A DNA stretch of 64,000 bases, taken from assembly GCA_030065935.1 (NCBI GenBank), contig JASJCP010000025.1:1-64000 (forward strand). Reading direction: 5' to 3'. Under the pieces are notes generated by a model that was given only the letters and a program-made list of their open reading frames with translations, searched no databases and was not told where the DNA came from. Positions 31,756-54,663 of this stretch are shown in pieces (positions within the stretch are counted from its first letter, which is position 1; each line of letters starts with the position of its first letter). Both the position numbers and the translations under genes were made by a program. This DNA comes from Xenococcaceae cyanobacterium MO_167.B27. Lineage in GTDB: Bacteria; Cyanobacteriota; Cyanobacteriia; Cyanobacteriales; Xenococcaceae.

Positions 31756-32029
31756 TAATTCTTAACTTTTATCAGATAAAAACCGTTAACTCTTGCAATA
31801 GGTTCTAACAATAGTTACACTTCTTTAAATAATAGGAAAATCAAGACATCCTAAATTAAGTCTATCTCTTTGCTACTCACCGTCAGAAATATTTGACGAA
31901 GTCGAAGCATATTTCACCTAATCATAGGGGGAGTACCTTCGAGGGAGTAAGAGCATAAGACAAAAAAAAATACAAATTAGAACATAAAAGTCTAAGTAGG
32001 CAAATTACTCAACAGGAGGAGTGTAGTCA

Positions 32030-33562
32030 ATGGGACTACCTTGGTATAGAGTTCACACAGTCGTCCTGAATGATCCAGGTCGTCTAATCTCAGTTCACCT
32101 AATGCACACCGCTTTAGTAGCAGGTTGGGCAGGTTCAATGGCTCTATTTGAGCTAGCAGTATTCGATCCAAGCGATCCCGCTTTGAATCCCATGTGGCGA
32201 CAAGGTATGTACGTATTACCTTTTATGGCACGTTTGGGTGTAACAGGTTCTTGGGGTGGCTGGAGCGTCACTGGTGAAACTGGGGTTGATCCTGGTTTCT
32301 GGTCTTTTGAAGGAGTTGCGATCGCACACATCGTTCTCTCAGGACTACTGTTCTTAGCAGCAGTTTGGCACTGGGTTTATTGGGATTTAGAATTATTCGT
32401 CGATCCTCGTACTGGTAAGCCAGCACTGGACTTACCAAAAATGTTTGGTATTCATCTTTTCTTATCTGGTTTGCTTTGCTTCGGTTTTGGAGCATTCCAC
32501 CTCACAGGTCTTTGGGGACCTGGAATGTGGGTTTCCGATGGTTATGGCATAACTGGTCATGTCCAAGCAGTAGCACCAGAATGGGGACCTGCTGGGTTTA
32601 ACCCCTTCAACCCTGGTGGAGTTGTAGCTCACCACATCGCAGCAGGTATTGTGGGAATTATTGCTGGGTTGTTCCACCTCAGTGTTCGTCCTCCCGAAAG
32701 ACTTTATAAAGCACTAAGGATGGGTAACATTGAGACTGTACTATCTAGCAGTATTGCAGCAGTTTTCTTTGCAGCATTCATCGTTACTGGAACAATGTGG
32801 TATGGTAACGCTACTACTCCCATAGAATTATTTGGTCCAACTCGTTATCAATGGGATCAAGGCTACTTCCAACAAGAAATTCAGCGTCGTGTAGAAACTG
32901 CGATCGCAGATGGTAAATCTGAATCTGAAGCTTGGTCAGAAATCCCTGAAAAACTTGCTTTTTATGACTATGTAGGAAACAGCCCCGCTAAAGGTGGTTT
33001 ATTCCGTACTGGTTCAATGGTAAGTGGTGACGGTATTGCTCAAGAATGGTTAGGACACGCTGTATTTAAAGATAGTGAAGGAAGAGAGCTATTCGTGCGT
33101 CGGATGCCTAACTTCTTTGAAACTTTCCCTGTGGTTCTAGCAGATGCTGATGGAGTAGTCCGCGCTGATATTCCTTTCCGTCGTGCAGAATCTAAATACA
33201 GTATCGAACAAAGTGGCGTTAGTGTTGCGTTCTACGGCGGTTCTTTAGACGGACAAACTTTCACCGATCCTCAACAGGTGAAGAAATACGCTCGTAAAGC
33301 ACAACTTGGTGAAGCTTTCGGGTTTGATACCGAAACTTTCAACTCTGATGGTGTATTCCGCACCAGTCCCAGAGGTTGGTTTACCTTTGGTCACGCTTGT
33401 TTCGCTTTACTATTCTTCTTTGGTCATATTTGGCATGGTTCTCGTACCCTGTACAGAGACGTATTTGCTGGTGTTGACCCCGAACTAGAAGAGGCACAAG
33501 TAGAATGGGGCTTCTATGCCAAAGTAGGTGATAAATCTACTCGTCGTAAAGAAGCTATCTAA
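32030..33562 (+). CDS. psbB: Photosystem II core antenna CP47
   Basis: The 510-residue chlorophyll-binding inner antenna of photosystem II, with six transmembrane helices. Start [20 protein letters not shown]; conserved His-rich helices include [37 protein letters not shown] and [20 protein letters not shown]; these histidines ligate chlorophyll. The large lumenal loop between helices 5 and 6 (about 255-450) is intact and the protein ends [18 protein letters not shown] lies 12-15 bp upstream of ATG. Followed by a terminator-like hairpin and psbT. Confidence 0.99.
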
Positions 33563-51365: not shown

Positions 51366-51409
51366 AGTCCCAGGTACTCCACCGTGCAACGGCGACTCCT
51401 GCTTGGACT
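51366..51409. repeat. Palindromic repeat, copy 1 (3' flank of TPR gene)
   Basis: A 44-bp palindromic unit starting AGTCCCAGGTACTCC and ending CTGCTTGGACT, four bases past the TPR gene stop codon. It shares both ends with the 35-bp copy inside the TpsB gene at 53382-53416, which lacks about 9 central bases. It could serve as a terminator hairpin. Confidence 0.65.
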
Positions 51410-51412
51410 TCT

Positions 51413-52276
51413 TTAATAATCAGCCTTATCATAGCAATGCTGTGCCTCTTCTTCCTTTCCTTGTTGAGCAAAAACATCTCCCAATAAACTATAGATGTAA
51501 GTCGCTTCTGGATTAATTTCTAAAGCTTTCTGATAGCAACGAATTGCAGTATCAAACTGCTCTTTCCGAACCAGAATATCCCCCAGTTTTTTATACACAA
51601 CAGCCATATCTGGTTTTAGCTGTATGGCTTTTTGATAGCTACTTATAGCTTCATCTAATCGTTCTTTTTGTGCCAAAACGTTACCCAAAGACACATAGTT
51701 TTTGGCTTTATCTGGGCTAAGAGCGATCGCTTTTTTGTAAGATTCAATAGCTTCGTCTGGTTGCTCTTTCTTAGCTAGCAAATCTCCGTAGTTGATATAA
51801 AAGCTTGATTTCCAGTCAGAACTTAATTCTGCTGCTTTTTGGTAAGCGGAAAGTGCCTCTCCTACCACATCTTTTTCTTGAATTAGAAGCTCGCCTAAAT
51901 TTTTATATACCATAGCAGACACATCAGATTTTAGAGCAATTGCCTCTTGATAAGCTGCGATCGCACCATAAATTTTATTTTGTTTGGCTAGAATTTTTGC
52001 TAACTGAATGTAAGCTGATGGACTATTTGGTTTCAGTCCGATAATCCGTCGATAACACTTAACTGCTTCCTCCCAATTTTCCTGAGATTCGTAGATTTCA
52101 GCCAAAGCATTGAGAGGCTTTATATATTCTGGCCTCATTTGAATCGCTTTTTGGTAACTTTGGCTCGCTTCTTCAATATTGCCACTTTCCTTTAACTTAT
52201 TTCCTTCTTCAAAAATTGCCTGTGCTTTTTCCATTTTGGTTGCTTTGGCTTTTTCCATTTTGGTTTCTTTTGCCAT
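51413..52276 (-). CDS. Tetratricopeptide repeat protein
   Basis: The 287 residues hold seven consecutive TPR units (about 25-275), each of 34-36 residues with the usual pattern (AIxxYxxAIxLxPxxxxxYxxLGxxLxxxxxxDE). The N-terminus is a short internal repeat (KETKMEKAKATKMEKA) from a small in-frame duplication. No signal or membrane segment. TPR arrays bind partner proteins; the partner is unknown. It is upstream of, and on the same strand as, the sulfotransferase gene, about 250 bp away. TPR proteins often accompany polysaccharide modification genes. Confidence 0.85.
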   Translation of the reverse strand: MAKETKMEKAKATKMEKAQAIFEEGNKLKESGNIEEASQSYQKAIQMRPEYIKPLNALAEIYESQENWEEAVKCYRRIIGLKPNSPSAYIQLAKILAKQNKIYGAIAAYQEAIALKSDVSAMVYKNLGELLIQEKDVVGEALSAYQKAAELSSDWKSSFYINYGDLLAKKEQPDEAIESYKKAIALSPDKAKNYVSLGNVLAQKERLDEAISSYQKAIQLKPDMAVVYKKLGDILVRKEQFDTAIRCYQKALEINPEATYIYSLLGDVFAQQGKEEEAQHCYDKADY

Positions 52277-52896: not shown

Positions 52897-54663
52897 CTAA
52901 AGCTGGGTTTGTATAGAGAAATAAACCCCATTTTCTTGTAGAGAATCTCCCAGAGAACTAAATTCAATCAAAGGAATTCCCCAGTCGATGCGACCAGTGA
53001 GGTTATTACCTAGAGAAACTTGAAATCCTATACCCATCGACAACAGAGTATTTACTGATTCAGGTAAACTTGTTTTAGTATTCCAAACTTTACCAAAATC
53101 AACAAATGGAATAAGCTCAAAAGTTATTTCTTGATTTTCAATAGTGGCAATGTTATTAAGAATTTCTGTAGAGATAAACAATCCGTTGTCTCCTACTAAA
53201 GCATTTTGACTATAACCACGGACACTTAGAGCACCACCTAAACTAAACTTTTGCAAGCTGACTAAACTATCATTGGCTAGTTGTAATTGCGATCTGATGT
53301 ATAAAGTTGTCTGGGGAGAGAGTAACCTGAGATACTGGGCTTGTCCTTGCCATGAAACAAATCTACTATCTGCTAATTCAGAGTCCAAGGTACTCCGCCG
53401 TGAGCCTGCTTGGACTTCGTCAATTGTAGAATCTAAAATATCCAAACCGAAATTAAACTGCGATCGCAATGCTATAACTTGTTTTTGATCTCGACTGACA
53501 AAGTTTTGAAACAACTGGAGGACATTGACTTTAGTTTCACCATCTTCATTGATAGCATTCCCTGTATTAGGAAACGGCTCATCATCTAAAAATCTAGTCC
53601 GAGAAGTTTCTTGAGAAAATCTAATCCCTACGATCGCTTCCTGATTCAGGGATTGTATTATGGGTTGAGTATAAGAAATTTCGTAGCGACGGGTTTTATT
53701 CCTAATATCCAAAGAGTCAAAAGGTTCTTGAATAATGGTACTATCACCACGACCATGAGCTATTCTAATTTTGCCATTACGAGCATTGATGGGAATTTCA
53801 TAACTAAGATTATCCAGTGTGTCACTACCGTCAGTGTTAACATAGGAAACATTAAAGCGATCGCCTTGTCCCAATAAGTTATTATGGTTAACTGCTATTC
53901 CACGGCGAAACGTCCCGACACTAGGTACTCGATTATTATCCAGATTTAAAGTAACAGAAAAAGTATCTGCTTCTGTAACTTCTACTTGTAACGAACTAGT
54001 ACCGGGTTCAATTCCTGCGGATAATTCGGCGCTAATATTAGCAATTAAAGGGTCAAATTGCAATACTTGTAGTGCATTAAGCAACCTATTTTGATTCAGG
54101 GGTGCTTGAGTAGCAATTTCCAAACGACGGCGAACATAATCAGGATTCAGTCTTTTTAGCCCTAATATCTCAATATCTTCAAGTTTTCCTTCAAGAATTT
54201 GCACCTTAACTACTCTATCTTCTATAATCTGGGGTAAGATTACTGCACCAGAAGTAATGTAACCATTTTCCCGATAGAGTTGGCTAATTTTTCTTGTTAC
54301 TTCTTGCAACTCAATAAAAGAAATCTGCCTTAGAGTATAAGGCTCAGTGAGGCGAGTAATTTCCTCTGGGTCAAAAACCGTATTACCAACTATTTCAAAT
54401 CTTTTAATCAGGATTGTACCTGGTATTCCTTCTGGGGGTAAAACAAAAGAAGGATTAGAAACATCAGGGGAAGGGAGAATTTCTGGGAGAGGAGATAACC
54501 GCTCAGGGGTTGATGGTTGTTGTCGCTGTGGTAATGGGGGAGAAGGTAAATTTTGCCCTTGTACTACAATAGACTGAATTGATGAATGAGCTATAGATAT
54601 AATGATCGTTGTGGCAATAAACGGCAGTTTTTTCCTCAAGCTATAGGACTTACTTTTCCCCAT
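52897..54663 (-). CDS. ShlB/FhaC-type two-partner secretion transporter (TpsB)
   Basis: The 588 residues have a signal peptide (about 1-36), a Pro-rich linker (about 38-75), two POTRA domains (about 83-230: ILIKRFEIVGNTVFDPEEIT and LEDIEILGLKRLNPDYVRRR) and a 16-strand barrel (about 235-588) with the conserved VRGYSQN motif (near 505) and C-terminal aromatic strand (GVYFSIQTQL). TpsB proteins export a partner TpsA exoprotein through the outer membrane. No TpsA-like gene (filamentous haemagglutinin type) is within this window. A palindromic repeat lies in frame within the barrel at 53382-53416. Confidence 0.9.
   Translation of the reverse strand: MGKSKSYSLRKKLPFIATTIIISIAHSSIQSIVVQGQNLPSPPLPQRQQPSTPERLSPLPEILPSPDVSNPSFVLPPEGIPGTILIKRFEIVGNTVFDPEEITRLTEPYTLRQISFIELQEVTRKISQLYRENGYITSGAVILPQIIEDRVVKVQILEGKLEDIEILGLKRLNPDYVRRRLEIATQAPLNQNRLLNALQVLQFDPLIANISAELSAGIEPGTSSLQVEVTEADTFSVTLNLDNNRVPSVGTFRRGIAVNHNNLLGQGDRFNVSYVNTDGSDTLDNLSYEIPINARNGKIRIAHGRGDSTIIQEPFDSLDIRNKTRRYEISYTQPIIQSLNQEAIVGIRFSQETSRTRFLDDEPFPNTGNAINEDGETKVNVLQLFQNFVSRDQKQVIALRSQFNFGLDILDSTIDEVQAGSRRSTLDSELADSRFVSWQGQAQYLRLLSPQTTLYIRSQLQLANDSLVSLQKFSLGGALSVRGYSQNALVGDNGLFISTEILNNIATIENQEITFELIPFVDFGKVWNTKTSLPESVNTLLSMGIGFQVSLGNNLTGRIDWGIPLIEFSSLGDSLQENGVYFSIQTQL
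53382..53416. repeat. Palindromic repeat, copy 2, in frame inside the TpsB gene
   Basis: AGTCCAAG and CTTGGACT arms (8 bp) bound a 35-bp unit sharing most bases with 51366-51409. On the minus strand it encodes roughly VQAGSRRSTLDSEL, in a barrel loop. Outer loops of beta-barrels tolerate insertions, so protein function can be retained. Confidence 0.65.

Follow-up and report, generated by a model that had tools for sequence, protein, structure and literature searches.

The gene for a two-partner secretion transporter in Xenococcaceae cyanobacterium MO_167.B27 carries a short palindromic unit whose relative lies just beyond the end of a second gene, which raises the question of whether both derive from a small mobile palindrome that adds peptide loops to proteins, as the first-pass annotation proposed. 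Both units exist, with sizes that had to be corrected, from 35 bp to 36 nt for the copy in tpsB and from 44 bp to 45 nt for its sister; that the former is coding and in frame, and the latter noncoding, was described correctly. The features that are relevant to this question within the window, by which is meant the whole stretch of 64,000 nucleotides analysed, are as follows:

52897..54663, minus strand: tpsB, a TpsB/ShlB-FhaC-type two-partner secretion transporter of 588 aa, with POTRA_2 and ShlB barrel (Pfam PF03865, 6.5e-26; PF08479, 1.6e-17)
53383..53418, minus strand: 36-nt element copy in the tpsB ORF, gene strand GAAGTCCAAGCAGGCTCACGGCGGAGTACCTTGGAC, encoding EVQAGSRRSTLD (residues 416-427), delimited from orthologue DNA and the alignment of copies
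53419..53423, minus strand: target pentamer directly 5' of the tpsB element, GTCAA, which is TTGAC on the gene strand (TTGAT or TTGAC at the orthologues' empty site)
51413..52276, minus strand: TPR-repeat protein gene, whose 3' end adjoins the sister copy
51367..51411, minus strand: 45-nt sister copy, starting one base past the stop codon of the TPR gene
51412..51416: flank of the sister copy, TTAAA on the minus strand
31898..31943, minus strand: third, diverged copy of 46 nt (a frame-changing length), intergenic; the covariance model match spans 31893-31943
31893..31897: flank of the third copy
32030..33562: psbB, from the ORF list

The filled site in tpsB reads ACA ATT GAC, followed by 36 nt and then by TCT GAA TTA, and the corresponding empty site in the relative G001 reads ACA ATT GAT TCG GAG TTA. 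In orthologue DNA (loci L005 and L006), ACAATTGA(T/C) runs straight into TCG.. or CCT.., with no insert. At the protein level, the two closest TpsB homologues, those of G001 (76% identical, same genus) and G002 (71%), are short by exactly 12 residues, and the insert residues are present in none of the other TpsB homologues aligned, which range from same-genus to order-level relatives; the lineage-specific insertion suspected in the first-pass annotation was thus borne out, with the reservation that the inserted residues are EVQAGSRRSTLD, not exactly VQAGSRRSTLDSEL. Two further homologues (L019, L020) display a longer loop of unrelated sequence at the same site. In the AlphaFold model the insert falls in a stretch of pLDDT below 50 (residues 418-428), a disordered loop that connects barrel strands 395-407 and 435-449, and precedes the loop with the VRGY motif. 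FhaC-type barrels are 16-stranded and their topology is established; by analogy with it, the insert loop should be extracellular. The alignment of copies reveals that the TpsB copy corresponds to the 45-nt unit minus 9 nt of the inner arm, a derivative that would add 12 residues to a surface-type barrel loop.

The family to which these units belong could be defined from its dispersed copies. The consensus, preceded by the flank TTGAC, is 5'-GAAGTC(C/G)AAGCAGGCTCCGYCGTnnnACGGCGGAGTACCTT(G/C)GAC-3', a nested imperfect palindrome of 45 nt with an outer stem of 7 bp and an inner stem of 9 bp. Among 22 aligned copies, the fourth pair of the outer stem is C-G in nine and G-C in eight, a compensatory change. 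A pattern search for 13 bases, with one mismatch allowed, matched 34 places in the genome, and a covariance model built from the 22 copies yielded 92 matches, including opposite-strand duplicates, which reduce to 71 distinct ones (about 50 of them strong and secure), a copy number that is to be read as a lower bound, since 150 of 1125 first-look candidates were scored by the model. The further copies that the first-pass annotation called for are therefore plentiful. Net lengths among the 71 distinct matches are 45 nt in 35, 46 nt in 22 and 44 nt in six, with a few other lengths besides. Within the window, both units and the third copy were recovered by pattern and covariance searches. The TpsB copy scores 49.0 bits (E 1e-10) and the sister copy 53.8 bits (E 6e-12), both being among the training copies of the model; the third copy, which is outside the training set, reaches 39.8 bits (E 3e-8). 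It is of note that a photosystem gene, psbB (CP47), has this third copy in its 5' region, about 90 bp upstream.

Variants of the element were also encountered. Longer versions of 95 and 74 nt (L203 and L295, 1501-1595; L299 and L300, 1501-1574) have the appearance of an element whose loop has taken up a second insert, and the one in L203, with 90 nt net, is still in frame. In several genomes (L314-L318, L323, L333) there is a subfamily with arms GTCAGAGGAAGCCCC...GGGGTCTCTCTGAC and TTCAC or TTTAC flanks, a pattern in the sequences that suggests several lineages of the element.

Within its own genome, protein genes accommodate at least 13 strong copies in frame. The hosts include the gyrB and dnaE inteins, a TPR-sulfotransferase, a nitroreductase-family protein, a CBS/GAF protein, a subtilase, a PMT-type glycosyltransferase, an MHYT histidine kinase, a Ser/Thr kinase, TpsB and the N terminus of RNase HII; in addition, one strong copy is found at the C terminus of a TnpB and two tandem copies at the N terminus of a histidine kinase. 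Weaker intragenic matches occur in TPR, CHAT, DUF389 and CheA-type proteins, and some low-scoring intragenic matches (L199, L200, L203, L204) could be due to chance or be ancient. Eight clean empty sites were identified in orthologues or homologues: seven with gaps of exactly 15 aa (the gyrB and dnaE inteins, TPR-sulfotransferase, nitroreductase, CBS/GAF protein, Ser/Thr kinase and RNase HII) and that of TpsB with 12 aa. The sites in TpsB, nitroreductase, CBS/GAF protein and RNase HII are empty in genomes of the same genus or family; for several linker sites (L168, L175, L204) no clean empty site was found. In sister species, in-frame copies are harboured by pheT (TIGR00472, 1e-162), leuS (TIGR00396, 2e-211), crtE, nagB-like and CheA-type genes, among others. 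Because cells normally cannot do without pheT and leuS, their products presumably tolerate the insert.

Several intragenic copies are worth mentioning in their own right. Those within the gyrB and dnaE inteins (L066, L070) represent a mobile palindrome inside another selfish element, and related inteins (L210, and L232/L220) are devoid of it. In the CheA-type gene L200 (1501-1550) and its G001 counterpart L263, the 45-nt unit occupies an apparently equal position with different arms (GTCAAA vs GTCAGAG), and the CheA-type genes L296 and L320, from different species, also have the unit at an apparently matching position; such units were either shared and then diverged, or arose from repeated insertion into one linker. 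A degraded counterpart of the copy in the CHAT gene L191 is present in L238.

The relationship between copy length and reading frame was examined by excising each copy in silico and requiring that the frame across the joined flanks stay open for 60 codons or more to either side of the site. In the genome itself, an open frame crosses the excised site for 15 of the 37 copies whose net length is divisible by three, vs none of the other 32 (Fisher p=1.8e-5), and in relatives for 18 of 82 frame-neutral copies vs none of the other four. As the test looked at the excised state, it would have revealed genes that a frame-changing copy had broken, unless what was left of them had decayed, and the fact that no such open frame was seen therefore indicates that frame-changing copies survive only between genes. 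Random positions in the tested loci meet the open-frame condition 55% of the time, so that frame-neutral copies, 41% of which are in genes in the genome itself, are rarer there than random positions, as expected under purifying selection. Taken together, the eight empty sites, the roughly 50 to 71 copies and the frame-length test support the notion of a small mobile palindrome that adds peptide loops to proteins, with mobility itself being what we infer from presence and absence between species.

The element is spread through one cyanobacterial family (Xenococcaceae/Pleurocapsales) and is nearly absent outside it. Model matches at E<=1e-4 were obtained in 23 of 40 genomes, the genome itself included: 22 of the 25 from the same family, and one of the 15 others of the order, with two weak matches. 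A scan of 84,980 species genomes with an exact pattern, whose strictness makes absence elsewhere weaker evidence than the model search, recovered only Pleurocapsales/Xenococcaceae, namely Hyella patelloides, LEGE 06147 and Xenococcaceae metagenome assemblies.

The ends of the element and its target can be read from the flanks, with every copy oriented so that GAAGTC comes first. The pentamer preceding the element is TTGAC in 36 of the 71 genome copies, and most others have TTNAC or CTGAC; the background frequency of TTGAC in the window is 0.12% of positions. In relatives, 33 of 88 copies have the TTGAC flank. No strong conservation extends upstream beyond the pentamer, and downstream there is only a pyrimidine preference at +1. 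The orthologues' empty sites read TCGAT, TTGAT, TTGAC, CTGAC, TTAAA or TTGAG, and target specificity is loose, with TTTAC, TTAAC and CTGAC being accepted. The right end is (C/G)GAC regardless of the left flank. A duplication of a GAC target was considered and ruled out, as the right-end GAC is constant when the left flank is TTTAC or TTAAC; since the right end does not track the left flank, there is no target duplication. Insertion as read from these sites is directional, 3' of a TTGAC-like pentamer and without duplication of the target.

As for the enzyme that might move the element, the genome encodes 43 Y1_Tnp matches and one RAYT-type gene, and many Y1 transposase genes are present in relatives as well. 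No copy stands beside a Y1 or RAYT gene in the loci scanned in the genome itself and related ones, and none was seen within about 2 kb of such genes in relatives where listed coordinates were inspected. None of the 30 of 43 Y1 matches read as loci has the ends of the element, and pairwise alignment gave no clear link between it and the ends of the genome's IS200-type copies. Three IS200/IS605-type copies (L096, L116, L101) have TTGAC at or near their homology boundaries (TTGACATCCTCACC, TTTAATTGAC), and offer a lead for an IS with a matching target preference.

Comparison with described systems places the element close to several of them. Like RPEs, it consists of dispersed palindromic units lodged in frame in many unrelated protein genes, whose products remain full length, and the likeness to Rickettsia drawn in the first-pass annotation holds as an analogy of in-frame palindromes. 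However, RPEs measure about 150 bp (PMC10969869), and the RPE/CGTC REP definition requires CGTC at one end, beside an 8-9 bp stem that starts with A-T pairs, and a CCA-like tail (PMC3733652), so that by these descriptions the present element is set apart: it is 45 nt long, ends GAAGTCS.../...TTSGAC around a nested 7+9 bp stem, with no terminal CGTC tag, has a TTGAC-like target and is found in one cyanobacterial family. REP elements do include occasional in-frame intragenic copies (PMC3733652), and REPs lie in tnpAREP genes without frame loss in a subclass that is abundant in cyanobacteria (PMC6006769). Similarly to GTAG REPs, the element is a small single-hairpin repeat, presumed to be non-autonomous, with some in-frame intragenic copies; unlike GTAG REP/RAYT systems, it has no GTAG or GTGG foot 5' of the hairpin, its aligned copies and flanks reading TTGAC followed by GAAGTC, its stem is nested, and no RAYT gene lies beside the copies checked. 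No convincing model match was obtained around RAYT-type or other Y1 genes, as a REPtron arrangement would display. The element hence works like RPEs and intragenic REPs and is assigned to neither, because the defining CGTC and GTAG tags and the RAYT association are absent.

With IS200/IS605-derived non-autonomous elements it has in common hairpin DNA, insertion 3' of a short preferred sequence (TTGAC in half of the copies, by empty and filled sites), absence of target duplication, which also sets it apart from classical MITEs, and a right end that resembles the target (TTSGAC vs TTGAC). It differs in having one nested hairpin, not two subterminal ones, and no IS with its ends was found among the Y1 loci read in the genome. 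Very small mobile repeats also occur in cyanobacteria in the form of the small dispersed repeats of Nostoc and Anabaena, which would differ from the present element in size and host, being reportedly of 21-27 nt and in Nostocales (Elhai et al. 2008). The literature searched, which did not extend to that classic 2008 paper, holds no description of this element family, which appears to be undescribed; the kind of element is already known.

Alternative explanations of these observations must be weighed. That the TpsB insert results from a local duplication or from ordinary variation in loop length, with a chance likeness to the downstream repeat, is scarcely credible: TpsB loops do vary in length, as the longer loops of L019 and L020 illustrate, but the insert corresponds from end to end to a genome-wide family (E about 1e-10 in the window), and filled and empty sites differ in their DNA by a clean step of 36 nt at TTGA. 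Chance resemblance between the TpsB and sister units is ruled out by copy number and empty sites. A functional RNA element, such as a terminator or mRNA stabiliser that is only incidentally in genes, would account for the compensatory pair changes in the stem, for the many intergenic copies and for a sister copy right after a stop codon; it is nonetheless very improbable, as an Rfam search gave no match and copies occur in either orientation with respect to genes, and also amid coding sequence. Some intergenic copies may have a secondary role.

An old hairpin family that spread once, is no longer mobile and is now inherited vertically in decaying copies agrees with the divergence of many copies (E 1e-3 to 1e-7 in the genome model search) and with intragenic copies that look shared, such as those of the CheA-type and CHAT genes described above, but we judge it distinctly unlikely in view of near-identical copies (four of one sequence in G005) and of the sites that are empty in same-genus or same-family genomes. 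True REP/RAYT membership, in which a REP-type hairpin would have as its transposase a TnpAREP (RAYT) from the cyanobacterial subclasses, among them those with REPs in frame in their own tnpAREP, deserves somewhat more credit and is still unlikely. RAYT-type HUH genes (NHxH...YIxxNP) exist in the family, in several subclasses (L348, L334, L335, L339, L340, L342-L344) and once in the genome itself, and the in-frame REPs cited above point the same way; against this, the hairpin has no GT[AG]G foot and the RAYT-type genes examined have no copy within about 2 kb.

The reading that we favour, and regard as likely, is that of a non-autonomous, single-hairpin mobile element of 45 nt that would insert directionally 3' of a TTGAC-like pentamer and whose in-frame loops would be kept by selection. 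The logic of the IS200/IS605 group involves guide and target interactions in single-strand HUH transposition (PMC6006769). Since a hairpin, a short 5' target, the absence of duplication and a target-like right end are the expected traces of such a process, the single-stranded hairpin DNA would be moved by an HUH (Y1) transposase of the IS200/IS605/RAYT superfamily, and would be moved in trans because no copy adjoins a Y1 or RAYT gene in the loci scanned; by this analogy, mobilisation of that kind stands at about even odds. Insertion in the right phase would add a 15-residue loop, because the canonical 45 nt are divisible by three and stops are usually absent from four of the six frames of the element. 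Selection would then retain only those intragenic copies that are in frame and located in loops, linkers or termini, and the added loops are, we infer, mostly neutral.

Rickettsia provides the best-known in-frame palindromic elements, and REP cases are scattered elsewhere; here such elements are met in a free-living bacterial family, in whose genomes the ends, the target, the insertion step and the frame selection can be read to the base. For the annotation of these cyanobacteria, this implies that loops such as LTKSKQAP..GGVPST, DEVxAGS..RRSTxD and SPRYSAV..RRSLLGLR are translations of the element, and not conserved protein motifs. Loops of 12 or 15 residues are predicted in proteins as unlike as an outer-membrane transporter, inteins and, in sister species, tRNA synthetases. 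The chances are evenly balanced that the element acts as a family-wide natural inserter of in-frame peptides, by virtue of its 45 nt, largely stop-free frames and short target, and that it decorates a measurable fraction of the family's proteins, inteins and tRNA synthetases included, under the action of a trans-acting single-strand transposase. Two old questions become testable in the Xenococcaceae: what moves tiny hairpins, and whether the genome is thereby supplied with new protein segments or merely tolerates them.
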